This document shows, one piece after another, positions 41,032-63,895 of a DNA stretch of 64,000 bases (the first letter of the stretch is position 1; every line of letters starts with the position of its first letter). The notes beneath the pieces are model-generated. The model worked only from the letters and a program-made list of their open reading frames with translations. It made no database searches and was not told the origin of the DNA. Position numbers and translations under genes: made by a program. Source of the stretch: Modestobacter sp. VKM Ac-2986 (GTDB lineage Bacteria > Actinomycetota > Actinomycetes > Mycobacteriales > Geodermatophilaceae); the NCBI RefSeq assembly GCF_026967795.1, contig NZ_JAPVBH010000003.1:1-64000 (forward strand), in the 5' to 3' direction.

Positions 41032-42101
<1,070 letters not shown>

Positions 42102-42105
<4 letters not shown>

Positions 42106-47814: not shown

Positions 47815-49089
47815 ATGCCCAGTGAGCGGTTCACCGGGCTGGTCGCCGTCCTCGACGCGATCCGCAGCGGGCCCGGCATCACCCAGCCGGAGCTGACCGA
47901 GCGGGTGGGGCTGGGCCGCAGCGTGGTCGCGCAGCGGGTGGGCGAGCTCGAGTCGGCCGGGCTGGTGGCCAACGACGGACTCGGGCCCTCCACCGGAGGT
48001 CGCGCGCCGCGCCGCCTGCGCCTGCGCGCCGAGGCCGGTCACGTCCTGGGTGTCGACATCGCGTCCAACGAGCTCGTGGTCGGCCTGGCCGACCTGGCCG
48101 GCGACATCGTCGCCGTGCGGCACGAGCACGTCGACGTCACCAGCGGCCCCGAGCTGACCCTGGCCGCGGCGGAGCGGATGGGGGACGCCCTCGTCCGGGA
48201 GGCCGGGCTCACCGGCGGGGTCTGGGCCGTCGGCGTCGGGACGCCGGGCCCGGTGGCCTTCGAGCGGGGCGACTTCCTGGCCGGGCCGCACATGCCCGGC
48301 TGGGCGCGGTACCCGCTCCGGGCCCGCCTGGCGCGGCACTGGTCGGCGCCCACCTGGATCGACGACCGGGTGAACCTGCTGGCCCTGGGCGAGATGTGGC
48401 GCAACCCCGCGGCCGCCGACGCCGCCCAGCTGCTCTACGTGGGCGGTGGCACGACGATCGCCGCCGCCGTGGTCGTCGACGGCCGGGTGTACCGGGGCGC
48501 CAACGGCCTGTCCGGGGCCATCGGGCACATCCCGGTCGCCGGGTCGGGCGACGTCGTCTGCGCCTGCGGCCAGACCGGCTGCCTCGAGGCGGTCGCCGGC
48601 GGCACGGCGCTGGCGCAGAACGCCCGGCTGCTGGCCGAGTGCGGGCAGAGCGACGCCCTGCTGGCCGTGCTCCGCGAGAGCGGCCGGATCCGGCCGGTCG
48701 ACATCACGATGGCCGCCGAGGCCGGCGACCAGGCCGCGCGCGCCCTGCTGCACCGCACCGGTCTGCTGCTCGGGGACAGCCTGGCGACGCTGGTGAGCCT
48801 GTTCGACCCGGAGCTGCTCGTCATCGGCGGTGGCATGGCCCGGGCCGGGGCGCACGTCCTGCCCTCGATCGGGGAGGCGGTGCGTGCCCGGGTGTCCTCG
48901 ACGACCGGGCAGCGCCTGCGCATCGAGCTGTCCGCGGTCGACGAGGAGGTGGCCGGCGTGACCGGCGCCGTGCAGCTGGCGGTGGGGGAGCTCTTCTCCC
49001 GCGACCAGCTCTCCTCGTGGCTCGACGACCGGTCACCCGCCGGCCGGCCCGAGCTCGCCGGCGTCGACGCCGAGGACCTCTCCGCCTGA
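47815..49089 (+). CDS. ROK-family regulator of the C-glycoside locus
   Basis: 424 residues. N-terminal winged HTH (VAVLDAIRSGPGITQPELTE, GLGRSVVAQRVGELESAG) plus ROK domain: VLGVDIASNELVVGLADLAG, GTPGPVAFERGDF, YRGANGLSGAIGHI, zinc motif CACGQTGCLEAVAGG and ELLVIGGGMARAGAH. The kinase phosphate loop is not DxGGT, in line with a regulator that only senses sugar. Adjacent importer and deglycosidase genes share a 23-nt palindrome that is the likely target. Confidence 0.92.
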   Translation: MPSERFTGLVAVLDAIRSGPGITQPELTERVGLGRSVVAQRVGELESAGLVANDGLGPSTGGRAPRRLRLRAEAGHVLGVDIASNELVVGLADLAGDIVAVRHEHVDVTSGPELTLAAAERMGDALVREAGLTGGVWAVGVGTPGPVAFERGDFLAGPHMPGWARYPLRARLARHWSAPTWIDDRVNLLALGEMWRNPAAADAAQLLYVGGGTTIAAAVVVDGRVYRGANGLSGAIGHIPVAGSGDVVCACGQTGCLEAVAGGTALAQNARLLAECGQSDALLAVLRESGRIRPVDITMAAEAGDQAARALLHRTGLLLGDSLATLVSLFDPELLVIGGGMARAGAHVLPSIGEAVRARVSSTTGQRLRIELSAVDEEVAGVTGAVQLAVGELFSRDQLSSWLDDRSPAGRPELAGVDAEDLSA

Positions 49090-49205
49090 CCCGCCGGCTG
49101 GGGTGTCACGGGGCGGCCTGGGCATCGACCGTTGCTGTGTGGGAGCAGTGTCCATCAGCGGTGCTGATGACGACCATCAGGAGGTCGGCGGCAGCGGTCC
49201 ATTGA

Positions 49206-49228
49206 CTTCTTCCGGTGGTAGGCAGAAG
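49206..49228. promoter_or_regulatory. Shared operator copy 1: CTTCTTCC-N7-GGCAGAAG
   Basis: A 23-nt imperfect palindrome with half-sites CTTCTtCC and GGcAGAAG, 64 bases before the importer SBP gene. A near-copy (17 of 23 identical) lies at 52511-52533 ahead of the deglycosidase genes. TTGACT at 49202-49207 touches it and could be the -35. Probable ROK binding site. Confidence 0.6.
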
Positions 49229-49291
49229 GCTGTGGTGGTCATCACGTAGTCCTGCACCGCAACGCCGCGGTGCACCACGAGAGGTCCCCCC

Positions 49292-50587
49292 ATGACACAG
49301 CGAGGCCCCTGGCGTCTCCGCCGCGTGAGCGTCCTGCTGGCTGCACCGGCGGTCGGCGCCCTCACCCTCACCGGGTGCGGCGGCAGCGAGTCCGGCGGCG
49401 AGGCCGGCGGCTCGGCCGCAGCCGCTGACGGCTTCACCTTCACCTTCGAGAACGCCAGCGGTGGCGAGAGCCCGTGGCAGCTCCTGGCCGACGAGTACAC
49501 CGCGGCCACCGGTGTCGAGATCGAGACCCAGGGGCTGCCGCCGGACAGCTACGGGCTGACCGTGCGCACCCAGCTCCAGGGCGGCAACGCCTCGGACCTG
49601 ATGATGTTCTCCCCGGGTGCGGGCAACTCCAACGCGGTGATGCCGCTGGCCGAGGCCGGCTACATCGAGCCGCTGGGCGAGAGCTCCACCGAGCTCATCC
49701 CCGAGGGCAACGAGGACCTGTTCGTCCTCGACGGCAAGACCTACGCCCAGCCCACGGACCTCGTCCCGGTCGGCATGGTGTGGAACGCCGGCGCGGCGAC
49801 CGAGGCCGGGGTCGAGGTGCCCGGCGACTTCGACGCCATGATCGAGGCCTGCAAGGCAGTCGGCGAGGGCAAGTCGCTGTTCGCCCTGGCCGGGTCGGTG
49901 CCGCAGAACGCCGGCCTGATGACCATGTCGATCTCGGCGACCCGGGTCTACGCCGAGGATCCCGACTGGAACAGCAAGCGCGCCGAGGGCTCGGTGTCCT
50001 TCGCCGACAGCAAGGGCTGGCAGGACACCCTGCAGACGGTCGTGGACATGAACGAGGCCGGCTGCTTCCAGGACGGCGCCGCCGGTGGCGGGTTCGACGC
50101 CATCACCCAGGGGCTGACCCAGGGCAGCGCACTGGGTGCCTTCGTGCCCGGCGCCGCCGCCACCGAGCTCGCCAAGGCCACCCCGGGTGCGAAGTTCGAG
50201 GTCGAGCCGTTCCCGGCGCCGACGGGTGCGGACCCCTACATGTTCGCCAGCCCGAACTACGCGCTGGCGGTCAACGCCAAGGCCGAGCCCGGGGCCAAGC
50301 AGGCGGCCATCGACTTCCTCGCCTGGGCCGCGCAGCCGGAGAACTCCAGGACCTTCACCGAGCTGCAGGGCGGCGTCGCGATCACCGGCCCGGACGAGAA
50401 CCTCGCCCCGGTGTACGCCCCGGTGGCCGACCTGCTCGAGGCCGGCGACTACTCGCCGCTGCCGCTGCTGTCCTGGCCGAACCCGGGCGTCTACGACGCG
50501 CTGTCCACCGGTGTGCAGGGGCTGCTGACCGGTCAGGGCGACATCCCGTCCGCGCTCGCCGCCGTCGACGCCGCGTGGGACCAGTAG
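49292..50587 (+). CDS. ABC sugar-binding lipoprotein (C-glycoside locus)
   Basis: 431 residues. Lipoprotein signal with Cys29 in LTLTGCGGSE, a Ser/Gly linker, then an SBP_bac_1/8 fold: FTFENASGGESPWQLLADEY, TVRTQLQGGNASDLMMF, YAQPTDLVPVGMVWN, GAFVPGAAATELAKATPG. ATG 49292 with gagagg upstream. Its neighbours suggest it binds a glycosylated plant compound or a related sugar; the ligand is not evident from sequence. Confidence 0.92.
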   Translation: MTQRGPWRLRRVSVLLAAPAVGALTLTGCGGSESGGEAGGSAAAADGFTFTFENASGGESPWQLLADEYTAATGVEIETQGLPPDSYGLTVRTQLQGGNASDLMMFSPGAGNSNAVMPLAEAGYIEPLGESSTELIPEGNEDLFVLDGKTYAQPTDLVPVGMVWNAGAATEAGVEVPGDFDAMIEACKAVGEGKSLFALAGSVPQNAGLMTMSISATRVYAEDPDWNSKRAEGSVSFADSKGWQDTLQTVVDMNEAGCFQDGAAGGGFDAITQGLTQGSALGAFVPGAAATELAKATPGAKFEVEPFPAPTGADPYMFASPNYALAVNAKAEPGAKQAAIDFLAWAAQPENSRTFTELQGGVAITGPDENLAPVYAPVADLLEAGDYSPLPLLSWPNPGVYDALSTGVQGLLTGQGDIPSALAAVDAAWDQ

Positions 50588-50624
50588 GACCCGACGTCCG
50601 ACCGACCCGAGGGACTGACTGACG

Positions 50625-51575
50625 ATGACTGCGACGATCCGGAAAGGCCCCGTCGTGGGAGAGGGCAGTTCGGCCGCCGGGGGTGGGGCAGTGTCCCGCT
50701 CCCGGCGCGCCCGGCCGCTCATCACCTACGGCCGGTGGTGGTGGGCGCTCCCGGCGATCGCGATGGTGGCGTTGGTCCACTACGCGGCGACCGCGGGTGG
50801 CGCGGTGTACGCGTTCACCGACTGGACCGGCATCGGGGACTTCGACTTCATCGGGCTGGACAACTTCCGGCGGATCTTCGACGACCCCAAGCTGATCGGC
50901 TCGCTGAAGAACACGCTCTTCCTGGCGTTCGGCTTCCTGGTGCTGACCAACGTGGTGGGGCTGTGTCTGGCCCTGGCCCTCAACCGCACGCTGAAGAGCC
51001 GCTACCTGCTCCGAGTGCTGTTCTTCATGCCGGTGGTGCTCAGCCCGCTGGCGGTCTCCTACGTCTGGAAGTTCATCTTCGACTTCAAGGGCCCGCTCAA
51101 CGGCGTCCTCGGCTGGGTGGGCATGGAGCCGCGGACCTGGCTGGCCGACCCGACCCTCGCGCTGTGGGCGGTGCTGCTGGTGATGGCCTGGCAGACCACC
51201 GGCATGGTGATGGTGATCTTCCTCGCCGGCCTGGCCACCGTGCCGATCGAGATCGAGGAGGCCGCCGCGATCGACGGGGCCGGCACCTGGCGACGGTTCC
51301 GGCACATCACGATCCCCTCGATCCGGCCCTCGATCGCCATCGCCTCGACCCTGATGCTCATCCAGGGCCTGCGCGTGTTCGACCAGGTCATGGCGCTGAC
51401 CGGCGGTGGCCCGGCCGGGGCCACCGAGACGCTGGCCACGCAGGTCTACAAGCAGACGTTCGCGCTGAGCAACTTCGGCTTCGGCGCGGCGCTGGCCCTG
51501 CTCCTCACCCTCATCATGCTCGTGTTCTCGGTGCTGCAGCAGGTGGCCACCCGAGACCGCTCACAGGGAGCGTGA
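50625..51575 (+). CDS. ABC sugar transporter permease (MalF type)
   Basis: 316 residues. A 38-residue basic leader, then six membrane helices with EAA loop EEAAAIDGAGTWRRFRHITI. GTGA overlap with the next permease. No ATPase in the operon. Confidence 0.92.
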   Translation: MTATIRKGPVVGEGSSAAGGGAVSRSRRARPLITYGRWWWALPAIAMVALVHYAATAGGAVYAFTDWTGIGDFDFIGLDNFRRIFDDPKLIGSLKNTLFLAFGFLVLTNVVGLCLALALNRTLKSRYLLRVLFFMPVVLSPLAVSYVWKFIFDFKGPLNGVLGWVGMEPRTWLADPTLALWAVLLVMAWQTTGMVMVIFLAGLATVPIEIEEAAAIDGAGTWRRFRHITIPSIRPSIAIASTLMLIQGLRVFDQVMALTGGGPAGATETLATQVYKQTFALSNFGFGAALALLLTLIMLVFSVLQQVATRDRSQGA

Positions 51576-52414
51576 CCGCTGTGTTCCGTTACTCGCCGGC
51601 CACGGCCGTGCGCGAGGGCGTCGTCTGGGTCTTCGCGCTGCTGACCCTGCTGCCGTTCTACTTCCTGGTCGTCACCGCGCTCAAGCCCAGCGAGGAGCTG
51701 CTCACCACGAGCACCTCCGCGCCGCCGAGCCGCCCCACCCTGGAGAACTTCACCGAGGTGCTCAGCGGTGGCGGGGACAACAACATCCTGCTGGCCCTGG
51801 GGCACAGCGTGGTCATCACCGCGGCCAGCATCGTCGGGCTGGTGGCCTTCGGCTCGCTGGCGGCCTACGTGCTGTCCCGGACCACCCGGCGCTGGGGCAC
51901 GATCACCTTCTACGGGTTCCTCATCGCCATCCTGCTGCCCACCCAGCTGGGTCTGGTGCCGCTCTACATCGGCGCCCGGCAGATCGGGCTGGTCGGGACG
52001 ATGTGGGGGATGGTCGTCCTCTACGTCGGCACGCTGATGCCGCTGGCGGTCTTCCTCTACGCCGGCTTCTTCCGCAACCTGCCGCGCGACTACGAGGAGG
52101 CGGCGTCGCTGGACGGCGCCAGCCCGGGGCGGGTGTTCCTGCGGGTCGTGTTCCCGCTGATGTCGCCGGCGACCGGCACCGTGGCCATCCTGGCCGGGCT
52201 CATCGTGTGGAACGACTTCTTCTCCGCGCTGATCTTCCTGGGCGGCTCGGACAACCAGACCCTGCCGGTGTCGATGTACTACTACGTCGGCTCGCTGGTC
52301 TCGGCGTGGAACAAGATCTTCGCGATCGTGCTGATCTCGATGGTCCCGATCCTGGCCTTCTACCTCTTCGCGCAGAAGAAGTTCATCCAGGGCTTCGCCG
52401 GCGGGATCAAGTAG
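51572..52414 (+). CDS. ABC sugar transporter permease (MalG type)
   Basis: 280 residues from GTG 51572, overlapping the preceding stop. EAA loop YEEAASLDGASPGRVFLRVV and C-terminal FYLFAQKKFIQGFAGGIK, typical of MalG-type permeases. GTG 51581 is an alternative start. The 254 bases after it carry the second 23-nt operator. Confidence 0.92.
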   Translation: MTAVFRYSPATAVREGVVWVFALLTLLPFYFLVVTALKPSEELLTTSTSAPPSRPTLENFTEVLSGGGDNNILLALGHSVVITAASIVGLVAFGSLAAYVLSRTTRRWGTITFYGFLIAILLPTQLGLVPLYIGARQIGLVGTMWGMVVLYVGTLMPLAVFLYAGFFRNLPRDYEEAASLDGASPGRVFLRVVFPLMSPATGTVAILAGLIVWNDFFSALIFLGGSDNQTLPVSMYYYVGSLVSAWNKIFAIVLISMVPILAFYLFAQKKFIQGFAGGIK

Positions 52415-52510
52415 CCCGCACGACCGCCGCCGGGCCGCTGCCGCCGGTCCGCCACCGCCATCAGTCGCCCTGATGCCGGTCATCGACGGTGTGACGACGC
52501 GCGTCCTCGA

Positions 52511-52533
52511 CTTCCTCCGAGTGTCGGCAGAAG
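52511..52533. promoter_or_regulatory. Shared operator copy 2: CTTCCTCC-N7-GGCAGAAG
   Basis: cttcctccgag-tgtc-ggcagaag aligns with the site at 49206-49228 at the same 23-nt length, keeping CTTC, TCCG, GTG and GGCAGAAG. It is 136 bases before the deglycosidase alpha gene. Both copies are in the same orientation relative to the gene they precede. Confidence 0.6.
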
Positions 52534-52668
52534 AATGGGGACGTCGTCCCGTCTGAGGCGACGGGTGCCTCCCGCCGTCCGCCCACCACCCCCGGCCCGT
52601 CCTCCGGACAGGCCGTCACCCCCACCGCCCGGCAGCTCGCCGGCGCGGCAGCCTGAGACGAGGCCCCC

Positions 52669-53676
52669 ATGACCACGCCCGCCCACCGCATCCAGCGGGG
52701 CGTCAGCCTGTACTCCTACCAGGAGGAGTTCTTCCTCCGGACCATGACGCTCGAGGACTGTGTCCGCGCCGCCGCGGAGTGCGGTGCCCTCGGGATCGAG
52801 ATCATCCCCGAGCAGTCGATCCCCGGGTACCCGCAGCTGACCGAGGAGTTCCTGCAGACCTGGCACGGGTGGATGGCGCAGTACGGCACCCACCCGGCCG
52901 CGACCGACCTCTTCCTGGACACCAAGCGCCACCCGGGCCGCTGGCTGACCCTCGAGGAGCAGGTCGCCTCGGTCCGCCAGGACGTCGACATCGCCGTCCG
53001 GCTGGGGGCGCCGGTGGTGCGCGCCATCATCAACACCCCGCCGGAGGTGATGGAGGCGGCCGCGCCGTACGCCGAGGAGGCCGGGGTGCGGCTGCTGCTG
53101 GAGGTGCACGCCCCCTTCCACTACGAGCACCCGTGGGTCCTCCAGCACCTGGAGGTCATGTACCGCACCGGGTCGCCGGCGCTGGGCCTGATGCCGGACA
53201 TGGGCACCTACGTGCGGCGGTTCCCCCGCGTGGTCAGCGACCGTGCCCTGCGCGACGGCGCCAAGCCCGAGCTGGTCGACCTGATCGTGTCCACCTACGA
53301 CGACCACGGCGACACCCACGCCCTGATGGACGTCGTCAACTACCGCGGCGGGGGGCCGGTCGAGTTTGGCCTGGCCCGCCAGGCCACGCACTACATCTGG
53401 TCCGAGCCCAAGGCGATGCTCGAGCACATGGGGCTCATCGGCCACGTGCAGGCGAAGTTCTACGAGATGACCGACGAGGGCGTCGAGTACTCGATCCCCT
53501 ATGACGAGATCGTCCCGGTCCTGATCGAGGGCGGGTTCGCCGGCCACCTGTCCAGCGAGTACGAGGGCAACCGGCACGTCCAGGACGCCTTCCCGGTGGA
53601 CAGCGTCGAGCAGGTCCGCCGTCAGCACGCCATGTTCGCCCGCCTGCTGGGCGAGACCACCGGAGAGGACGCCTGA
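52669..53676 (+). CDS. C-glycoside deglycosidase alpha-subunit-like (sugar isomerase/epimerase fold)
   Basis: 335 residues, xylose-isomerase-like TIM barrel (AP endonuclease 2 superfamily). Candidate metal ligands are Glu in RLLLEVHAPFHYEHP, Asp in LMPDMGTYVRRF, His in HVQAKFYEMTDEG and Glu in LSSEYEGNRHVQD. The next gene is a CGD beta-subunit homologue and the one after is a sugar oxidase, the order known for C-glycoside-cleaving enzymes (CarB/CarC, Dfg and Dgp types), where the alpha subunit breaks the C-C bond of a 3-keto-C-glucoside. ATG 52669 has gag/gagg upstream; TGATG overlap with the beta gene. Confidence 0.82.
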   Translation: MTTPAHRIQRGVSLYSYQEEFFLRTMTLEDCVRAAAECGALGIEIIPEQSIPGYPQLTEEFLQTWHGWMAQYGTHPAATDLFLDTKRHPGRWLTLEEQVASVRQDVDIAVRLGAPVVRAIINTPPEVMEAAAPYAEEAGVRLLLEVHAPFHYEHPWVLQHLEVMYRTGSPALGLMPDMGTYVRRFPRVVSDRALRDGAKPELVDLIVSTYDDHGDTHALMDVVNYRGGGPVEFGLARQATHYIWSEPKAMLEHMGLIGHVQAKFYEMTDEGVEYSIPYDEIVPVLIEGGFAGHLSSEYEGNRHVQDAFPVDSVEQVRRQHAMFARLLGETTGEDA

Positions 53677-54065
53677 TGTTCGACCAGTACATCGTCTGCG
53701 AGGAGGGCTTCCGGGCCCACGAGGACGGCCGCCCCGGTGGGGTCGTCGAGGTGCGGATGCCCTACTACCGGGGCCTGGCCCTGTCGATGGTCGAGGCCGT
53801 CGACCTGGTCCTGGACGGCCGCCCGGTGCCGGCGGACCGGACCACCTTCACCGTGCACGGCCACACCTACGGCTTCGACCAGCTGCCGCACACCACCGAC
53901 GACCGGTGGGAGATGGGGGAGCGGGCGCAGCTGGCGTTCACCACCGACGAGCCGCTGGCGCCCGGTGAGCACGACGTGGCCGTCTCGGTGCGGCTGCGGA
54001 TCTCCTACATGCCGGTGCCGGGCGGGGGTCGCGACAGCAAGCGGCTCACCCTCGCCGGCGCCTGA
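53676..54065 (+). CDS. C-glycoside deglycosidase beta-subunit-like protein (DUF6379)
   Basis: 129 residues, all-beta. The pattern DQYIVCEEGFRAHED, VEVRMPYYRGLALSMVEAVD, VLDGRPVPADRTTFTVHG, TTDDRWEMGERAQLAFTTDE and VSVRLRISYMPVPGG is the family of CGD beta subunits (DUF6379), as I recall it. It forms a complex with the alpha subunit and shapes the active site. Overlaps the alpha gene by one base (TGATG), so strict stoichiometric translation is expected. Confidence 0.82.
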   Translation: MFDQYIVCEEGFRAHEDGRPGGVVEVRMPYYRGLALSMVEAVDLVLDGRPVPADRTTFTVHGHTYGFDQLPHTTDDRWEMGERAQLAFTTDEPLAPGEHDVAVSVRLRISYMPVPGGGRDSKRLTLAGA

Positions 54066-54085
54066 CCCGGACCAGGGGACCGACG

Positions 54086-55648
54086 ATGAGCGAGTCGGAG
54101 GGACGGGGCGTGGCGACCGAGGCCTACGACGTGGTGGTCGTCGGCTCCGGGCCGGTGGGCACCGCGGTGGCCCGCGAGCTGGCCGACCTGGACCCGGGGC
54201 TGCGGCTGCTGGTGCTCGAGGCCGGCGGGGTGCTCGGCGAGACGCCGGGCGGGCACGTGAAGAACATCGCCGACGCCGGTGCCCGCGAGGCGGCGCTGGC
54301 GGCGCTCCCGCCCAGCCGGGACGCCCTGCCCGGTGGGCGGCCGGCGCGGCCGGGGACGGCCCTGGTCGGCGCCCCGGACATGCCGAACGCGGCCATCTCC
54401 ACCAACGTCGGCGGCATGGGCGCGCACTGGACGGCGGCCTGCCCGCTGCCCGGTGACGACGAGGTGCCGGACTTCCTGGACCGGGACTCCTTCGACGACG
54501 CCCTGGCCCGCGCCGCCGACCTGCTCGCGGTGACCACGCACGCCTTCGACGGCGCACCGCTGACCCCGGCGGTGCTCCGCGTGCTCGGCGAGGTCTTCGA
54601 CGGGCCCGGCCGCCGTCCGGTCGGGCCGATGCCGGTCGCGGTGCGCCGCGAGGCCGACGGCCAGCTGCACTGGACCGGGCCCGCGGTCGTCGCCGGCGAC
54701 CTGTGGGAGCGGCCGCAGGTGACCCTGCGGGCCGGCACGCTGGCCCGGCGGGTGCGGATCGAGGGCCCGACGGTCACCGGGGTCGAGGTGGTGGACGTGG
54801 CCACGGGCCGGTCCGAGGTGCTCGCCGCCCGGGCCGTGCTGGTCGCCGCGGACGCCTTCCGGACCCCGCAGCTGCTCTGGACGTCAGGCATCCGGCCGGC
54901 GGCCCTGGGCCGCTACCTCAACGACCAGCCGCAGGTCATGCTGGCCTCCCTGGTGGCCGAGGAGCACGTGCCCGCCGACGCGGTGGGTCTGGGCGCGGTG
55001 CCCACGTCGGTGGCCACGACGCCGGGGGGCGGGGCGATCGTGCCGCTGTCCGGGGTGTCCTGGGTGCCCTACGCCGCCGACCGGCCCTTCCACGGCCAGG
55101 TCATGCAGCTGGACGCCTCGCCGGTGCCGCTGGAGCCCGACGTCACGGTCCGGCCGGGCCAGGTGGTGGGGCTGGGCTGGTTCTGCCGCAAGCAGCTGTC
55201 GGCCCAGGACCGGGTGTGGTTCGACGAGCGCGAGCTCGACGAGCACGGGATGCCGGCGATCCGGATCGACTACACGCTCACCGCGGCCGACGAGGAGTCG
55301 ATCGCCGCGGCGACGGCGGAGATCCGCCGGGCCGCCGCGGCGCTGGGGCGGACGCTGGGGGAGCCGTTCACCATGCCGGCCGGCACCTCGCTGCACTACC
55401 AGGGCACGACCCGGATGGGCCCGGTCGACGACGGCACCAGCGTCTGCGACACCACCGGCCGGGTCTGGGGCACCGAGAACCTCTACGTCGGCGGCAACAA
55501 CGTCATCCCGACCTCCACGGCCTGCAACCCGACGGTCACCGCCGTCGCGCTCGGCGTGCTCTCCGCCCGGGCACTGCTGGGCCGGCTGGCGGGGGTGGAG
55601 GGGGACGCGGTCGCCGCCCGCGCCGTGCCCGAGGGCGCGCAGGCCTGA
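54086..55648 (+). CDS. GMC oxidoreductase, pyranose oxidase / C-glycoside 3-oxidase-like
   Basis: 520 residues. FAD-binding VVVVGSGPVGTAVARELA at residues 16-33; GGMGAHWTAACP with His114 at the place where pyranose 2-oxidase links FAD covalently; C-terminal HYQGTTRMG and YVGGNNVIPTSTACNPT with the catalytic His/Asn pair. Pyranose-oxidase relatives oxidise glycosides at C2 or C3, and the CarA-type enzyme makes the 3-keto-C-glycoside cleaved by CarBC. Position after the deglycosidase subunits supports this. ATG 54086 with agggga upstream. A hairpin follows. Confidence 0.85.
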   Translation: MSESEGRGVATEAYDVVVVGSGPVGTAVARELADLDPGLRLLVLEAGGVLGETPGGHVKNIADAGAREAALAALPPSRDALPGGRPARPGTALVGAPDMPNAAISTNVGGMGAHWTAACPLPGDDEVPDFLDRDSFDDALARAADLLAVTTHAFDGAPLTPAVLRVLGEVFDGPGRRPVGPMPVAVRREADGQLHWTGPAVVAGDLWERPQVTLRAGTLARRVRIEGPTVTGVEVVDVATGRSEVLAARAVLVAADAFRTPQLLWTSGIRPAALGRYLNDQPQVMLASLVAEEHVPADAVGLGAVPTSVATTPGGGAIVPLSGVSWVPYAADRPFHGQVMQLDASPVPLEPDVTVRPGQVVGLGWFCRKQLSAQDRVWFDERELDEHGMPAIRIDYTLTAADEESIAAATAEIRRAAAALGRTLGEPFTMPAGTSLHYQGTTRMGPVDDGTSVCDTTGRVWGTENLYVGGNNVIPTSTACNPTVTAVALGVLSARALLGRLAGVEGDAVAARAVPEGAQA

Positions 55649-55935: not shown

Positions 55936-57096
55936 ATGTCCGGGAACGCACCGCTCGCCACTGCGCCGGCAGGGTTCCGCCGGGCGCTGGGCCACTACCC
56001 GACCGGGGTCTCGCTCATCACCGCCCGGCAGGCCGACGGGACGCCGGTGGCGATGGTCGTGGGCACCTTCACCTCCGTCTCGCTGGACCCCCCGCTGGTG
56101 GGCTTCCTGCCCGACCGCGCCAGCACGTCCTGGCCGCTGATCCGGGAGGCGGGGCGCTTCTGCGTCAACGTGCTCGCCGCCGACCAGGAACAGGTCTGCC
56201 GGGCGTTCGTGTCCAAGGACCCCGACCGGTTCGAGCGCTGGACCAGCGTCGGCGACGTGCACCGCCCGCCGCTGCTGCGGGGTGCGGTGCTGCAGGTCGA
56301 CTGCGACCTCGCCGACGTGCTGCCCGCCGGTGACCACGACGTGGTGCTGGGCCGGGTGACCGGCATCTCCGTGTCCGAGGAGGCCGGTCTGCCCCTGCTG
56401 TTCCTGCGGGGCGGCTACGGGTCTCCGTCGCTGCCCTCGGTCCAGGCCGAGGGCCCCGGCCTCGCCGACCAGCTGCGGCTGGCCGACCTGATCCGCCCCG
56501 AGGCCGAGGCGCTGTCCGCCGAGCTCGGGCTGGTGTGCCTGGTCAGCGCCGCCGTGGGCGACGCCGTCGTCTCCCTCGTGGCGGCCGGCATCGGCTCGGC
56601 GCCCGGCGGGAGCGACACCCGGGTGGGCACCACCTTCCCGCTGGCGGCCCCGATCGCGCCGCTGTTCCTCGCCTGGGCCCCGGCCGCCGACCAGCAGGCC
56701 TGGCTGGCCCGGGGCGCCCGGCTCACCGGGAGCGACACGGCCGGGTGCGCCGCGGACCTGGCGGCGGTGCGGGCGCTCGGCCACACGGTCACCACCGGCC
56801 GCGCCAGCGCCGACCGGTTCGAGCGCTCCCTGTTCGACCGCGACGCCCCCGGCGGTGTGGCCGGGGTGCTCGGGGAGCTGCTGCAGCGCGGGCCCGAGCC
56901 CGGGTTGCGCCGGCCGCTGGCCGAGCTCACCGACGTCACCTCGATCGCCGCGCCTGTCCGCGACCGCGACGGGCAGGTCGTCCTGGCGCTGCACCTCATG
57001 GGCTTCACCGGCCAGGAGACCCCCGACCGGCTCACGACCTGCCTGGACCGGCTGCTCGTCGCAGCCCGCCGGGCGACCGACCGCACCGCTGCCTGA
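55936..57096 (+). CDS. Flavin reductase fused to an IclR-type ligand-binding domain
   Basis: 386 residues. Residues 10-165 are a flavin reductase (HpaC/ActVB-like): FRRALGHYPTGVSLITAR, VVGTFTSVSLDPPLVGF, FCVNVLAADQEQVCRAFVSK, HDVVLGRVTGISVSE. Residues 175-385 look like the IclR effector domain: ELGLVCLVSAAVGDAVVSLV, RVGTTFPLAAPIAPLFLAWA, VRALGHTVTTGRASADRFER, ITSIAAPVRDRDGQVVLALHL-type ending. No IclR helix-turn-helix is present. It should supply reduced flavin to the adjacent monooxygenase, with the extra domain perhaps sensing substrate. ATG 55936 has gaggagg upstream. Confidence 0.85.
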   Translation: MSGNAPLATAPAGFRRALGHYPTGVSLITARQADGTPVAMVVGTFTSVSLDPPLVGFLPDRASTSWPLIREAGRFCVNVLAADQEQVCRAFVSKDPDRFERWTSVGDVHRPPLLRGAVLQVDCDLADVLPAGDHDVVLGRVTGISVSEEAGLPLLFLRGGYGSPSLPSVQAEGPGLADQLRLADLIRPEAEALSAELGLVCLVSAAVGDAVVSLVAAGIGSAPGGSDTRVGTTFPLAAPIAPLFLAWAPAADQQAWLARGARLTGSDTAGCAADLAAVRALGHTVTTGRASADRFERSLFDRDAPGGVAGVLGELLQRGPEPGLRRPLAELTDVTSIAAPVRDRDGQVVLALHLMGFTGQETPDRLTTCLDRLLVAARRATDRTAA

Positions 57097-57129: not shown

Positions 57130-58227
57130 GTGCACTTCTCCGCATTCCTCACCAGCCGCTCCATGGCCCCCGAGCAGGACCGGGCGGTGACCCTGGCGAT
57201 GGTCCAGCACGCCACGGACGCCGAGCGGCTCGGCTTCGACGCCGTCTTCCTGCCCGACCACCACTTCACCGGCTACACCCCGCCGGCCAGCGACCCGATG
57301 ATGTTCGCCGCCTACCTGACGGCCAAGCTGCCGCGGCTGCACCTCGGCTTCTCCGTGCAGACCATCCCGCTGCACCACCCGGTGCGCTTCGCCGAGCGGC
57401 TGAACATCATCGACCAGCTGACCGAGGGCAAGGTGCTGGTCGGGGTGGGCAGCGGCACCACCCCGGAGGAGATGATCGGCCTCGGGGTCAACTACAAGGA
57501 CGCCGCGGACCTGGCGATCAGCAACCTGGAGATCGTCGAGCGGCTGTGGGCGAAGAAGCCCACCGACGAGCCCGTCGTCTTCGACAACGGCCGTTACCAG
57601 GGCGCGGTCGTCTCCCGCATCGCACCGGCGGCCTACTCGCCCGACGGCCCGCAGGTCATGTCCGTGGCGCTGCGTCCCAGCAGCGTCCAGCGGGCTGCGG
57701 CCAAGGCCCAGCCCGCGTTCATCCCGGCCTTCACCCCGCCCGGCTTCGACGGGGACCCGATGCCGCACCTGCGCCGCTACTTCGCCGCCTACCGCGAGGC
57801 CCTCGAGGCGGCCGGCCACCCGGAGGAGAAGGTGGCCCACGCCCTGGAGTGGACGACGCACACCTACCAGCACGTGCACGTCGCCGAGACCGACGAGCAG
57901 GCCGAGGACGAGTTCCAGACGCTGATGGCGGAGTACCAGGAGGCCATCGACCACGAGTACGAGGCGAACAAGGCGGCCGAGGAGCTCAGCGGGGTCGACC
58001 TGCGCCGGGCACCGGACGCCCGGGGGCCGGAGTACCAGGGCACCTGGTGCCTGCGCGGCAGCGTCGAGACCGTGAGCGCGCACCTGGCGGAGGTGCACGA
58101 CCTCGGCATCGGCAACCTGCTCGGTGGGTTCATGGGCGGCCCGCTGACGCCGGGCCGGCAGGAGCTGGGCACCCGGTCCATGGAGCTGTTCGCCACCCGG
58201 GTCATGCCCCGGTTCCGGTCCGCGTGA
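57130..58227 (+). CDS. Luciferase-like (LLM class) flavin-dependent monooxygenase
   Basis: 365 residues, bacterial-luciferase fold. Seen: MVQHATDAERLGFDAVFLPD with HHFTGY, PRLHLGFSVQTIPLHHPVRF, ERLNIIDQLTEGKVLVGVGS and GLGVNYKDAADLAISNLEIV. It uses reduced FMN from a separate reductase, which is the preceding gene. Substrate unknown; an aromatic aglycone or its ring-opening product is a guess from context. GTG 57130 with aggagg; overlaps the GH3 gene (GTGA). Confidence 0.9.
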   Translation: MHFSAFLTSRSMAPEQDRAVTLAMVQHATDAERLGFDAVFLPDHHFTGYTPPASDPMMFAAYLTAKLPRLHLGFSVQTIPLHHPVRFAERLNIIDQLTEGKVLVGVGSGTTPEEMIGLGVNYKDAADLAISNLEIVERLWAKKPTDEPVVFDNGRYQGAVVSRIAPAAYSPDGPQVMSVALRPSSVQRAAAKAQPAFIPAFTPPGFDGDPMPHLRRYFAAYREALEAAGHPEEKVAHALEWTTHTYQHVHVAETDEQAEDEFQTLMAEYQEAIDHEYEANKAAEELSGVDLRRAPDARGPEYQGTWCLRGSVETVSAHLAEVHDLGIGNLLGGFMGGPLTPGRQELGTRSMELFATRVMPRFRSA

Positions 58228-60680
58228 CCACCGTCGACCACGGCCGCCCCGGCGACGCGGCGCTGCACGCCGTCCTCGAGCAGCTGGACCCCGCGCAGCG
58301 CGCGGCGCTGACGGCCGGGGAGACCGGCTGGAGCACCGTGCCGGCGCCGGAGGTGGGGCTGGGGTCGGTCGTGCTCGTCGACGGCCCGCTCGGGCTGGTG
58401 AGCCCGACCTTCGACGAGCGGGACACCTCGCTGCTGCTGCCCTGCGGCACGGCGCTGGGCGCCACCTGGGACCCCGCGGTCGTCCGGGCCGTGGCGGCCG
58501 CCGAGGCCTCGGAGGCTCGCCGCCGCGGCCACGACGGCGTGTACGCGCCCAACCTGAACCTGGCGCGCACCGGCCTGTCCGGGCGCACCTTCGAGATGCT
58601 CTCCGAGGACCCGCAGCTCGCCGGCGTCCTCGGTGCGGCCTTCGTGCAGGGCGTGCAGGGGCAGGGGGTGGCCTCCTTCCCCAAGCACCTGGTCTGCAAC
58701 GACACCGAGACGCAGCGGCAGCGGATGAGCGCGACCGTCGACCCGGTGACCCTGCGCGAGGTCTACCTGCGCCCCTTCGAGCTGGCCGTCCGCGCCGGCG
58801 CCTGGGGCGTGATGACGGCCTACAACGGGGTCAACGGCGTGCCCTGCGCCGAGGACGCCGGGCTGCTGTCGGTCCTCAAGGACGAGTGGGGCTTCGACGG
58901 GCTGACGGTGTCGGACTACTTCGCCCTCAAGCAGACCCTCGGTCCGGCGCTGGCCGGGCTGGACCTGGAGATGCCGGGCCCGGCCATCCACCTCGGCCCG
59001 CAGCTGGCCGCGGCGGTGGCCGCCGGGCAGGTGCCCCAGGAGCGGGTGGACGACGCCGTGCTCCGGCTGCTGCGGCTGGCCGGCCGGGTCGGCGCGCTGG
59101 CCGGCCACGAGCGCGTGGTCGGTGCACCCGGGGAGCAGGTGGACGCCGACGGCGCCGCGGACGTGCTCAGCACCGCCGCGGCCGCCGCCTTCACCCTCGT
59201 CCGCAACGAGGGTGCGGTCCTGCCGCTGGACGGCGCGGAGGTGGCCCGCCTCGCCGTCCTCGGCCCGAACGCCGCCCGGCCGTGCTTCCAGGGGGCCACC
59301 TTCGGCCGCATCCGGCCCGCCTCCCCGCCCGTCCCGCCGCTGGACGCCCTCCGCGCGCGGTTCGCCGGCGAGGTCGTGCACGAGCCGGGCATCGCCCTGA
59401 CCCGGCCCGAGCCGCTGGGCGCCTTCGCGGTGACCGCCCCGGACGGCACCCCGGGCGTCCTGCTGGAGCACCACGTCGGGGAGGCCGGCGCCGAGCCGGT
59501 GCTCACCGAGGTGCGCGGCGACAGCAGCTTCATCTGGTTCGGCACCGTGCCCGGCGTCGGCCCCACGACGCGGCCCGGGTCGCTGCGGCTGACCGCCGTC
59601 CTCACCCCGCAGGTCAGCGGCGTGCACCTGCTGGGTGCCGGCGGCTCCGGGGACACGACGCTGACCGTCGACGGGCGGCCGGTGGCCGACCGGCCGGCGC
59701 CCGCGCCGCAGGACGTGATGGGCGAGGTGGCCCGGGCCGAGATGAGCACCGGCGCGGTGGAGCTGACCGCCGGGGTGCCGGTGACCGTCGTGGTCGAGAT
59801 GCACTCGGCGGGGTCGCGGGTGCAGGCGCTCACCGTCGGCTGCCTGGCCCCGCAGCCCGACGGTGCGCTGGCCCGCGCCGTCGCCGCTGCCGCGGACGCG
59901 GACGCCGTCGTGCTGGTGGTCGGCGACGTGCTGGAGACCTCCCGGGAGAGCCGCGACCTGGACGACTCGGCCCTGCCGGCCGCCCAGGAGCAGCTGATCC
60001 GCGAGGTCGCCGCGGTCAACCCCCGCACCGTCGTGGTGGTCAACGCCGGCCGCCCGGTGCACGCGCCGTGGGCCGACGAGGTCGCCGCCGTGCTCTTCGC
60101 CTGGTTCCCGGGCCAGGAGTTCGGCCCGGCGCTGGCGGGCGTGCTGGCCGGGGACCGGGAGCCCGGCGGGCGGATGCCGGTCACGGTGCCGCTCGCCGAC
60201 ACCGACCGCTCGACCTGGGGCGAGCAGCTGGACGCCGACCTCGCGCTGGACTACACGGCCACCGAGCCGGTGGGGTACCGGTACCTGCAGCGGACGCACC
60301 GCCCGGCCCGCTTCCCGTTCGGCTCCGGGGAGGGCTACACCAGCTGGGACGTGCGGGACGCCGACCTCGCGGTCGACCGGGCCGGCCCGGCGGTCCGCGC
60401 CGAGGTCACCGTGACGGTCGCCAACACCGGTGCCCGGGCCGGCCGCGACGTCGTCCAGGTGTACGTCCAGGGACCCGGGGAGGACTCCGCCCGGCTGGCC
60501 GGGTTCACCGGGGTGCGGCTGGCGCCGGGGGACAGCGACCGGGTGTCCGTCGTGCTGGACGAGCGGACCTTCCAGCGCTGGGAGGTCGGTGCCGGCTGGG
60601 TCGTTCCGGCCGGCCGGCACGAGGTCCGGGTCGGCCGCTCCTCCGCCGACCTGCCGCACGTGCTGGCCGTGGACCTGTGA
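58224..60680 (+). CDS. Glycoside hydrolase family 3 beta-glucosidase with PA14-like insert
   Basis: 818 residues, no signal peptide. GH3 catalytic parts: GPLGLVSPTFDERDTS, YAPNLNLARTGLSGRTFEMLSEDP, FPKHLVCNDTETQRQRMSA, nucleophile Asp in GFDGLTVSDYFALKQTL near residue 232. Between the two GH3 domains is a PA14-like beta insert (about 410-530: FIWFGTVPGVGPTTRPG, LLGAGGSGDTTLTVDGRPV). C-terminal fibronectin-III-like end. Probably cleaves beta-O-glucosides inside the cell, complementing C-deglycosylation. GTG overlaps the LLM stop. Confidence 0.92.
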   Translation: MTTVDHGRPGDAALHAVLEQLDPAQRAALTAGETGWSTVPAPEVGLGSVVLVDGPLGLVSPTFDERDTSLLLPCGTALGATWDPAVVRAVAAAEASEARRRGHDGVYAPNLNLARTGLSGRTFEMLSEDPQLAGVLGAAFVQGVQGQGVASFPKHLVCNDTETQRQRMSATVDPVTLREVYLRPFELAVRAGAWGVMTAYNGVNGVPCAEDAGLLSVLKDEWGFDGLTVSDYFALKQTLGPALAGLDLEMPGPAIHLGPQLAAAVAAGQVPQERVDDAVLRLLRLAGRVGALAGHERVVGAPGEQVDADGAADVLSTAAAAAFTLVRNEGAVLPLDGAEVARLAVLGPNAARPCFQGATFGRIRPASPPVPPLDALRARFAGEVVHEPGIALTRPEPLGAFAVTAPDGTPGVLLEHHVGEAGAEPVLTEVRGDSSFIWFGTVPGVGPTTRPGSLRLTAVLTPQVSGVHLLGAGGSGDTTLTVDGRPVADRPAPAPQDVMGEVARAEMSTGAVELTAGVPVTVVVEMHSAGSRVQALTVGCLAPQPDGALARAVAAAADADAVVLVVGDVLETSRESRDLDDSALPAAQEQLIREVAAVNPRTVVVVNAGRPVHAPWADEVAAVLFAWFPGQEFGPALAGVLAGDREPGGRMPVTVPLADTDRSTWGEQLDADLALDYTATEPVGYRYLQRTHRPARFPFGSGEGYTSWDVRDADLAVDRAGPAVRAEVTVTVANTGARAGRDVVQVYVQGPGEDSARLAGFTGVRLAPGDSDRVSVVLDERTFQRWEVGAGWVVPAGRHEVRVGRSSADLPHVLAVDL

Positions 60681-62140
60681 TCCCGGCCGAGCAGACGACC
60701 GCGGTGGACCGGGCGCCGGGCCGGCGCGGACGGCCGCGGATGGCGCTGGCGATCGCGTGTGCGACCCAGTTCATCTGCGTCCTGGACGTCTCGATCGTCA
60801 ACGTCGCCCTGCCGGCCATGCGCACGGACCTGTCGCTGTCGCCGGTCGGGCTGCAGTGGGTGGTCAACGGCTACACGCTCACCTTCGCCGGCTTCCTGCT
60901 GCTGGGCGGCCGTGCCGCGGACCTGCTGGGCCGGCGGAACGTCTTCATCGCCGGCCTCGCCCTGTTCACCCTCGCCAGCCTGGCCGCCGGGTGCGCCCAG
61001 GAGGGGTGGCAGCTGGTGGCCGCCCGGGTGGTGCAGGGCCTGGGTGGCGCGGTGCTGGCCCCGACGGCACTCAGCCTGATCACTACGACGTTCACCGAGC
61101 CCGCCGCCCGGGCGCGCGCGCTGGCTGTGCTCACCGGGGCCGCCGGTGCCGGCGGAGCCCTGGGCGGCGTCATCGGCGGGGTGCTCACCGGGCTGCTCAA
61201 CTGGCGGTGGGTGTTCTTCGTCAACGTCCCGCTGGGGGCGCTGCTCGTCGTCGGGGCGCTGACGGCCCTGCCCGCGGCGGTCCGGCAGCCACTGCGCGGT
61301 CGGCTGGACCTGCCCGGCTCGGCCACCGTGACCACCGGTACGGCCGCCCTGGTGGCCGCCATCGTGGTGAGCGAGCAGCGCGGCTGGACGTCGGCCTCGA
61401 CGCTGCTGCTGCTCGCGGTCGCCGTCCTGCTGCTGACCGCGTTCGTGCTGCGCGAGCGCCGGGCCGCCCACCCGCTGGTGCCGCTGGCGGTCTTCCGGGT
61501 CCGCTCCCTGGCCCTGGCCAACGGGCTGTCGGCGCTGATCGGCGGGGTGCTGCCGGCGACCATGTTCTTCCTGTCCCTGCACCTGCAGCAGGTGCTGGGC
61601 ATGAGCCCGCTGCGCGCCGGGCTGGCCCTGCTGCCCAGTGCGGTGGGCATCGCCGCCGGGGCGTGGGCGGCGTCCCGGCTGGTCGCCCGGGGTGCGAAGG
61701 CGACCTTCATCGGTGGCTGCCTGCTCAGCGGCGTGTCACTGGCATGGCTGTCGGGGATCGACCCGGACGCCGGCTACGCCCTCCCCGTCGCCGTCCCGCT
61801 GTTCACCGCGATGTTCGGCTTCGGGGTCTCCGGCCTGCCGCTGACCGTCGCGGCGACCTCGGGGGTGGGCCCGCACTGGGCGGGTCTGGCGTCCGGGCTG
61901 CTCAACACCGCCAAGCAGGTCGGGGGAGCGGTCGGGCTGGCCGCGCTCGTCACCATCGCCGCCACCCGCACCGCCGGGCTGACCGGCGGGGGAGCGCCGG
62001 AGGACGTGGCGACCACGTCCGGCTTCGGCACCGCCCTGCTGGTGGGCGCCGCGATCATGGTCCTGGCGGCCCTGGGCGGATCGGCCCTCCCGCGTGCCTC
62101 CCGCGGCCGCGCCCGTCCCGAACCGGTGGCGGGCACGTGA
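60677..62140 (+). CDS. MFS transporter, DHA2-type drug:H+ antiporter family
   Basis: 487 residues, about 14 membrane helices. Hallmarks: FICVLDVSIVNVALPAMRTDL (motif D1), GLQWVVNGYTLTFAGFLLLGGRAADLLGRR (motif A in part), ARVVQGLGGAVLAPTALSLI and GAAGAGGALGGVIGGVLTG (motif C). May export a toxic aglycone or take in a substrate. GTG overlaps the GH3 stop; GTGA to the next gene. Confidence 0.92.
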   Translation: MIPAEQTTAVDRAPGRRGRPRMALAIACATQFICVLDVSIVNVALPAMRTDLSLSPVGLQWVVNGYTLTFAGFLLLGGRAADLLGRRNVFIAGLALFTLASLAAGCAQEGWQLVAARVVQGLGGAVLAPTALSLITTTFTEPAARARALAVLTGAAGAGGALGGVIGGVLTGLLNWRWVFFVNVPLGALLVVGALTALPAAVRQPLRGRLDLPGSATVTTGTAALVAAIVVSEQRGWTSASTLLLLAVAVLLLTAFVLRERRAAHPLVPLAVFRVRSLALANGLSALIGGVLPATMFFLSLHLQQVLGMSPLRAGLALLPSAVGIAAGAWAASRLVARGAKATFIGGCLLSGVSLAWLSGIDPDAGYALPVAVPLFTAMFGFGVSGLPLTVAATSGVGPHWAGLASGLLNTAKQVGGAVGLAALVTIAATRTAGLTGGGAPEDVATTSGFGTALLVGAAIMVLAALGGSALPRASRGRARPEPVAGT

Positions 62141-63111: not shown

Positions 63112-63154
63112 GGACGTGACGACACCGGGCAGGCGCCTTCCGTACGGTCGCGGC

Positions 63155-63802
63155 GTGGAGAACCCCAACGCCTACGCCCGCGAACCCAAGCAGGAGCGCA
63201 GCCGGCTGTCCTTCGACCGGGCCGTGGACGCCGCGGTGTCGTTGCTGGTGGAGCGGCGAGCCGCCACGTTCACCCTGGCCGAGGTGGCCGAGCGGGCCGG
63301 CGTCTCCACCGGGTCGATCTACGGCCGGGTCGACAGCAAGGACGACCTGCTGCGCACGGCGCACGCGCGCGAGATGGCCCGGATGTCGGTCGAGCAGGCC
63401 GAGGCGTTCCCCGCGACGGCACCGGCGGGGGAGACCTTCCCGGACACGGTCAGCCGGTTGGTGCACACCGTCGGTGACCTGCTCCGCCGCAACGCCCCCG
63501 TGCTCGCCCCGTTCATGCTCATGGGCCCGCACGACCCGGTCATCGCCGAGCTCGGCAGCAACGGCTACCGGGAGCTCAGTGCGGCCTTCAGCGCCGCACT
63601 GCTGGCCCGCGGCGACGCGATCACCCACCCCGAGCCGGAGCGCGCAGCCGCTTGGAGCTGCACGGTCGTCTACAGCGTCCTCGCGCGCTGGCTCGGGCTG
63701 GGCAGTGCGCCCGAGGCGGCCGGCGAGGGGGACTGGGAGCTCATCCTGGCCGACCTCGCGGAGATGGTGACCGCCTTCCTCACCGGCGGCCCGCGGAGCT
63801 GA
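63155..63802 (+). CDS. TetR-family regulator of the flavin-reductase operon
   Basis: 215 residues. N-terminal HTH: FDRAVDAAVSLLVERRAATF, TLAEVAERAGVSTGSIYGRV, DSKDDLLRTAHAREM; then the helical ligand domain (TVSRLVHTVGDLLRRNAPVL). GTG 63155 is six bases after TACGGT, so it is probably leaderless and has its own promoter at the end of the operon; GTG 63116 is an in-frame alternative overlapping no SD. Its binding site is likely the gttggttc/gaaccaac element at the right edge and its relative at 55893. Confidence 0.88.
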   Translation: MENPNAYAREPKQERSRLSFDRAVDAAVSLLVERRAATFTLAEVAERAGVSTGSIYGRVDSKDDLLRTAHAREMARMSVEQAEAFPATAPAGETFPDTVSRLVHTVGDLLRRNAPVLAPFMLMGPHDPVIAELGSNGYRELSAAFSAALLARGDAITHPEPERAAAWSCTVVYSVLARWLGLGSAPEAAGEGDWELILADLAEMVTAFLTGGPRS

Positions 63803-63842: not shown

Positions 63843-63895
63843 TTGAGACGACGAGCACAGCAGGACTAGAATCAACACGTTGGTTCTGAACCAAC
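63843..63895 (+). promoter_or_regulatory. Rightward promoter with TetR-type palindrome at the window edge
   Basis: TTGAGA (63843-63848), 18 bases, TAGAAT (63867-63872), then gttggttc-t-gaaccaac (63879-63895), a perfect 8-base inverted repeat around one base, covering the expected start point. It drives a gene beyond the window; no start can be fixed in the last 105 bases (GTG 63918 opens a frame to the end, Arg/Pro-rich, unconvincing). Confidence 0.7.

Follow-up and report, generated by a model that had tools for sequence, protein, structure and literature searches.

The stretch of DNA analysed here (the window) comprises positions 1–64,000 of contig C9 in the 4.19 Mb genome of Modestobacter sp. 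VKM Ac-2986, a member of the family Geodermatophilaceae. Between positions 47815 and 55648, it carries seven forward-strand genes of a putative locus for the uptake and cleavage of plant C-glycosides. All seven had been called in the original prediction, and they were confirmed by the positions of the open reading frames and by Pfam support for each gene (ROK, SBP_bac_8, BPD_transp_1 twice, AP_endonuc_2, CGDB, and GMC_oxred). The first gene (47815–49089) encodes a repressor-like regulator of the ROK family, ROK1 type, with a winged helix-turn-helix (HTH) and a ROK domain (Pfam ROK, 2.1e-45; HTH_24, 4.5e-8), which groups with ROK1 proteins of relatives with a support of 1.000. It is followed by three genes of a CUT1-type sugar importer of the ATP-binding cassette (ABC) class: a solute-binding lipoprotein (SBP; 49292–50587), with a signal sequence and an LTGC lipobox recognized by eye, and two permeases, the MalF/GlcT-like PermF (50625–51575; BPD_transp_1, 1.9e-17) and the MalG/GlcU-like PermG, which starts with GTG (51581–52414; BPD_transp_1, 2.3e-14). 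The last three genes encode the alpha (52669–53676) and beta (53676–54065) subunits of a C-glycoside deglycosidase (CGD) and an FAD-dependent GMC oxidase of the C-glycoside 3-oxidase type (54086–55648). The ATG of the beta gene overlaps the TGA of the alpha gene by one base.

The oxidase matched 7qf8, the Pseudarthrobacter C-glycoside 3-oxidase PsPOx/PsG3Ox, with E = 3.8e-125. Clade IV of the actinobacterial POx/CGOx enzymes is characterized by the motifs (G/A)AHW and LDASPVPL(A/G)(D/E)DD (PMC10807413). The window oxidase has the flavinylation motif GAHW and the loop LDASPVPLEPD, the last residues of which differ from the clade motif. In the alignment with 7qf8, examined by eye, counterparts of K55, R94, and Q297 (glycoside-anchoring) and of H440 and N484 (catalytic) are kept; the likeness to PsPOx/PsG3Ox, known here from sequence, thus extends to the clade motifs and five substrate or catalytic residues. 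The oxidase of a relative, Geodermatophilus nigrescens, is already a seed sequence in the POx/CGOx study (PMC10807413), and the enzyme type is therefore not new for this group. No signal peptide was apparent by eye in the sequences of the oxidase or the CGD, and cleavage would therefore require uptake of the glycoside.

The beta subunit matched PF19906 (CGDB) with 1.2e-29 and 102.9 bits, against a cut-off of 27.6, and is the sole CGDB match in its genome. The alpha subunit has a xylose-isomerase-like TIM-barrel fold and matches the alpha chains of solved CGDs; it is 53% identical over 324 residues to the structurally solved CGD of Deinococcus aerius, and the 13 best structural matches of its predicted model were all CGDs. 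Similarity to the C-glucosyl deglycosidase/oxidase system of D. aerius TR0125 (8qvc, 8umc) also covers the beta subunit (8qvc_B, E = 4.8e-27) and the oxidase (E = 5.9e-118); the entry 8qve (“Pyranose oxidase”) is presumably the D. aerius oxidase. The pairing of a CGD alpha/beta enzyme with a C-glycoside-oxidase-like enzyme, as originally proposed, therefore stands on the CGDB match, the identity of alpha to the D. aerius enzyme, and the conserved oxidase residues.

The metal site of the alpha subunit differs from the canonical one. In AgCGD2, the metal ligands are E147, D179, H269, K271, and E305, and the chemistry is performed by H149 with E307 (PMC8563793). Mapped onto the window alpha via L075 as a bridge sequence, these residues correspond to E145, D177, Q261, K263, and E297 at the metal and to the catalytic pair H147 and E299. 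The canonical CGD site consists of one His, two Glu, one Asp, and one Lys; here, the catalytic pair is present and the metal-ligand His is replaced by Gln261, and for this reason we regard the window alpha as a member of a variant clade rather than a canonical CGD. Among the features named beforehand as decisive, the CGDB match of beta and the catalytic His (H147) were found, whereas one metal-ligand His was not. His occupies this position in those solved CGDs that are aligned over it (8qvc, 9m3b, 9m3a, and 7dnm), including that of D. aerius. To our knowledge, no characterised CGD has Gln at the metal-His position. In the predicted model, Gln261 lies within the strand 260–264, and E145, D177, and E297 near the ends of their strands.

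The replacement is not confined to the window. Among the 44 best alpha sequences, including that of the window, Gln was found in 25 and His in 18, and one was incomplete; no variation was seen at the other six positions in the sequences that cover them. A tree of 75 alpha sequences comprised 32 with Gln and 43 with His. The Gln sequences, all actinobacterial, required two changes and formed groups of 26 (support 100/99) and 6 (100/97), the latter being the second alpha of relatives' clusters. These counts take at most three matches per locus and omit L037–L043 and L047–L049, which repeat the genomes of L050–L056, L079, and L081 (L040, the same-genus genome G088, is likewise omitted); the incomplete L086 stands outside the tree. 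The His-to-Gln replacement probably arose twice in Actinobacteria; some long-branch joins in the tree are unsure. One reading of Gln261 is that the alpha subunit does not function as a lyase and either has another TIM-barrel activity on the keto sugar (hydratase or isomerase) or is inactive. Ala mutants at the five metal-site residues, the lost His among them, showed dramatically reduced activity in two CGDs (PMC8563793), and Gln is present in 32 of the 75 sequences. We consider this reading quite improbable, since Gln is fixed in the 26-member clade and arose again in the 6-member clade, a CGDB match adjoins the Gln-type alphas in the loci read, and none of the best sequences that cover these positions has lost the catalytic His, the Glu paired with it, or any of the four remaining ligands. 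In addition, the only CGDB protein of the genome lies next to a C-glycoside oxidase.

Two operons, of the importer and of the enzymes, are preceded by the same 23-nt site, as had been predicted. At promoter 1, it is the operator-like palindrome CTTCTTCC-N7-GGCAGAAG at 49206–49228, and at promoter 2 CTTCCTCC-N7-GGCAGAAG at 52511–52533; the consensus is the palindrome CTTCYKCC-N7-GGMRGAAG. Shuffling the window 100 times never produced two matches. With up to three mismatches, these were the only two matches in the whole genome (one for the reversed control pattern); a looser pattern with one mismatch found two extra places, which is the level of its control. The putative promoter 1 (49202–49231, forward strand) has a –35-like TTGACT, an 18-bp spacer, and a probable –10 element AAGGCT, and overlaps the operator; promoter 2 has a –35-like TCGACT at 52507–52512. 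A position between the –35-like TTGACT and the presumed –10-like AAGNNT is as expected of a repressor-binding site. A second palindrome, CATCAG-N5-CTGATG, had been overlooked earlier. It is located at 49153–49169 and 52459–52475, followed by a further conserved CATC (49175–49178 and 52481–52484, respectively). The two copies are the sole exact matches in the genome, and one mismatch added two further places. Measured from start to start, the two palindromes are 53 bp apart at promoter 1 and 52 bp apart at promoter 2.

This arrangement is conserved in relatives. We compared nine relatives possessing ROK, ABC, and CGD genes, taking each genome once (in L044, the ROK2 gene continues past the end of the stretch). 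G107, with an SBP of 39% identity beside its own CGD cluster, was kept outside this set, as its cluster was read in part. The operator precedes the SBP gene in all nine (0–2 mismatches) and the second transcript in seven (0–1 mismatches). Across the 112 family genomes, a composite pattern of both palindromes had 15 matches, spread over 8 genomes and all at this locus, while the reversed control had none. The spacing of 52–53 bp recurred in the sites that match the composite pattern. Two features that the pattern did not require are common to the 15 sites: a third CATC (15/15) and, immediately preceding the operator, TTGA (14–15 of 15 per base). No operator with up to two mismatches was found in any of nine CGD loci without a detected ROK orthologue, one of which (L045) covers part of its cluster.

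The regulator has an N-terminal HTH, a ROK domain, and the Cys motif CxCGxxGCxE, which is the Cys motif of the ROK family. Two tandem ROK genes are present in the stretches of 7/9 relatives, and the window has the ROK1 type alone. All eight ROK1 sequences, including that of the window, have Arg at the position we take to be the kinase catalytic Asp, which is kept in all eight ROK2 sequences; the HTH motif GLGR(S/T)VVAQRV is common to 12 of these 16 proteins. Tandem paralogues with near-identical recognition helices, one with Arg and the other with the kinase Asp, can be seen at L054 604–3197 and L079 1608–4245. Since ROK1 and ROK2 share the HTH motif and differ at the kinase Asp, a two-sensor switch is possible: relatives may have two ROK sensors acting on one operator, of which the window kept the one with the altered pocket. 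A search for a ROK2 orthologue elsewhere in the genome returned the window's own ROK as the best match (53%), followed by one of 45%, and thus no clear ROK2.

The ROK protein is the probable binder of the composite element, judging from the conserved neighbourhood. The proposal that all seven genes form one regulon is strengthened by the composite element at both promoters but is overstated: the site precedes the six genes of the two operons, and before the ROK gene itself no site with up to three mismatches was found in the 815 bases scanned. This absence, together with the presence of two different palindromes, could be taken as a sign that another regulator binds the element, such as the TetR protein encoded downstream or a global factor; moreover, G020 and G059 keep ROK genes while the upstream palindrome before their SBP genes is unrecognisable. 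We nevertheless find such a regulator unlikely, because within the family, the element was found only where ROK genes adjoin, the relatives' ROK2 promoters have operator-like sites, and the HTH motif is shared by most of the ROK proteins. Those ROK2 sites occur in 4/8 promoters with up to two mismatches and in 8/8 with up to three. As evidence of autoregulation, they are weak (three mismatches in 4/8) and give only a hint.

The importer consists of the SBP lipoprotein and two MalF/MalG-type permeases. The locus was originally described as complete. This was not the case: within 47815–55648, there is no ABC ATPase gene, which 8/9 relatives encode at the locus, and the conserved neighbourhood continues to 63802 and beyond the window. 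Sugar importers of Actinobacteria usually rely on a shared, distant ATPase. One candidate is a stand-alone MalK/MsiK-like ABC ATPase at 41032–42105 on the forward strand (Pfam ABC_tran, OB_MalK, and TOBE_2), 59% identical to residues 1–326 of the L079 ATPase and 52% over 366 residues by blastp. A second one at C15:24839–25990 scored slightly higher against the L079 ATPase. Either of them could energise the importer. An SBP orthologue was found in 11 of the 112 family genomes, where in most genomes the best 15 candidates were scored, and all 11 are among the 17 genomes with CGDB (hypergeometric probability 2.4e-11, which ignores kinship). Both permeases have homologues of at least 45% identity in 15 of 40 loci (stretches of up to 10 kb from alpha). 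Other sugar permeases of the window are only 31% and 25% identical to those of the importer.

It could be argued that a free sugar or oligosaccharide is the cargo of the importer and that its genes only happen to adjoin those of the CGD. The best structural matches of the SBP are chitooligosaccharide-, xylooligosaccharide-, and raffinose-binding proteins. This explanation seems rather doubtful to us in view of the co-occurrence of SBP with CGDB, the operator shared with the CGD transcript, and the similar permeases near CGD genes in Micrococcaceae and in one Nocardioidaceae strain.

We conclude that the seven genes probably constitute an inducible catabolic locus for plant C-glycosides, with flavonoid and xanthone C-glucosides as the likeliest cargo. 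The SBP and the two permeases would take up the glycoside intact, with energy supplied by an ATPase whose gene lies outside the locus. The cytoplasmic FAD oxidase would then oxidise the sugar at C3, giving H2O2, and the CGD alpha/beta enzyme would break the C–C bond by metal-assisted beta-elimination, yielding the aglycone and a 2-hydroxy-3-keto-glycal. Until an inducer is bound, the ROK protein would repress both promoters via the operator overlapping the –35/–10 region, and the second palindrome, 52–53 bp (about five helical turns) upstream, may help this repression. A more detailed version is offered tentatively, in which a dedicated ATP-driven importer is combined with a private two-operator ROK switch spanning about five helical turns, a degenerate kinase site that senses a C-glycoside or keto-sugar, and a Gln-for-His lyase.

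Several observations weigh against this account. No enzyme for the released 3-keto-glycal is evident inside 47815–55648, and Gln261 stands in place of a His at which Ala mutants of two CGDs showed dramatically reduced activity (PMC8563793). Before the ROK gene there is no operator. The recall of the composite pattern is circular, because the pattern was written from these very sites, although its specificity is not, and G020 and G059, with ROK, ABC, and CGD genes, lack both a composite match and a second operator at up to two mismatches. The fold of the SBP is of the ordinary sugar-binding type and gives no hint of an aromatic cargo. Finally, two genomes of the window's genus (G088 and G093) have CGDB without this SBP, and the CGD therefore does not need this importer.

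The locus might alternatively serve O-glycosides, alone or together with C-glycosides: the oxidase would make 3-keto-O-glucosides, from which the CGD would eliminate the aglycone, and C-glycosides would be side substrates. A gut CGD/CGE eliminates both 3-keto O- and C-glucosides (PMC10628242), PurA oxidises daidzin, genistin, and apigetrin (PMC12724307), and a GH3 beta-glucosidase-like gene lies downstream. We regard this alternative as unlikely. Among solved structures, the one closest to alpha is entered in the PDB as a C-glucosyl deglycosidase, and the oxidase has the motifs of the clade that prefers C-glycosides (PMC10807413). In addition, 3-keto-O-glycosides are reported to fall apart without an enzyme, so there would be less need for a lyase (PMC12724307).

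The C-glycoside locus can be compared with several known systems. The two-step oxidation and elimination is that of CarA/CarBC and AgCGD2 (7dnm) from soil actinobacteria. E147, H149, D179, K271, E305, and E307 of AgCGD2 have counterparts in the window alpha, which is, however, only 26% identical to it, with Gln261 in place of His269. PurA/PurBC of Paenarthrobacter sp. No. 37 likewise combines a GMC oxidase with a heterodimeric lyase in a soil actinobacterium, and its puerarin breakdown is inducible (PMC12724307); the printed N-terminus of PurB (ending TLYSF) appears nearer to the AgCGD2-type sequence than to the window alpha. The Agrobacterium OGE operon (GlycDH, AtOGE, AtHYD, and Gfo) also performs oxidation and elimination, with TIM-barrel and Gfo enzymes for the subsequent hydration and reduction, but its eliminase is unrelated in sequence and its first enzyme is a dehydrogenase, not an oxidase (PMC10628242). 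As for transport and regulation, the main text of PMC12724307 mentions no transporter, operon, or regulator of PurABC. The words for transporter and ROK are absent from PMC10807413, PMC10646112, and PMC12724307; “transporter” is also absent from PMC8563793 and PMC10628242, and the passages of PMC11170127 refer to transporters only in general terms. The statement that an importer linked to CGD is little described thus holds within the literature examined: in its top-ranked papers and in these texts, the description of the D. aerius cluster not among them, no C-glycoside importer or switch for it is described.

Downstream of the oxidase, the conserved neighbourhood contains further forward-strand genes. 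They encode a flavin reductase with an IclR_C-like C-terminal domain (55936–57096; Pfam), also found beside CGD in three Amycolatopsis loci, a luciferase-like flavin monooxygenase (57130–58227; Pfam 3.6e-40), the GH3 beta-glucosidase-like enzyme (58224–60680; NCBIfam beta-glucosidase 5.5e-167, below its cut-off), a DHA2-family MFS transporter (60677–62140; NCBIfam EmrB family 2e-66, just below its cut-off), and a TetR-family regulator (63116–63802; Pfam TetR_N 5.5e-9); the last four assignments also draw on synteny. The fusion of flavin reductase and IclR_C resembles the phenol-gated reductases of two-component hydroxylases. Just past the window end, one Hyi-like and two IolE-like TIM barrels are encoded (L115 2034–4765, corresponding to G000:C9 64033–66764); sequence matches of the IolE-like proteins in the PDB were IolE entries only (two each). 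By analogy with AtHYD (PMC10628242), these TIM barrels may hydrate the 3-keto-glycal. In Klenkia, Amycolatopsis, Streptomyces, and one genome of the window's own genus, large subsets of this block are found around CGD genes. An exact palindrome, TTGGTTC-N-GAACCAA, was observed at 63880–63894 between the TetR and Hyi-like genes. It was considered as a TetR operator of the block and rejected, having no counterpart with up to two mismatches in nine stretches of relatives from seven genomes; for this reason, we do not claim a second regulon.

The window locus has the layout seen in Goekera and Geodermatophilus. Its alpha is 88–90% identical to that of Goekera and 82% to that of the same-genus L055, whose stretch showed no ROK, SBP, or permease genes of this kind, suggesting transfer or differential loss. 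Loci of relatives are larger and contain another oxidase, additional TIM barrels, another CGD pair, and in some cases a Gfo/Idh/MocA-like gene. In G107 (C1:4823813–4870588), eight CGDB matches within about 44 kb, with the diverged SBP alongside, form an expanded C-glycoside island.

While the chemistry is known from CarABC, PurABC, and D. aerius, the dedicated importer, the shared two-part switch, and the altered metal site look new from comparison of sequences. For C-glycoside uptake and induction, neither of which is described in the literature examined, the locus supplies a specific candidate importer, operator, and regulator, and its natural Gln variant of the lyase metal centre would show whether an essential His is replaceable.

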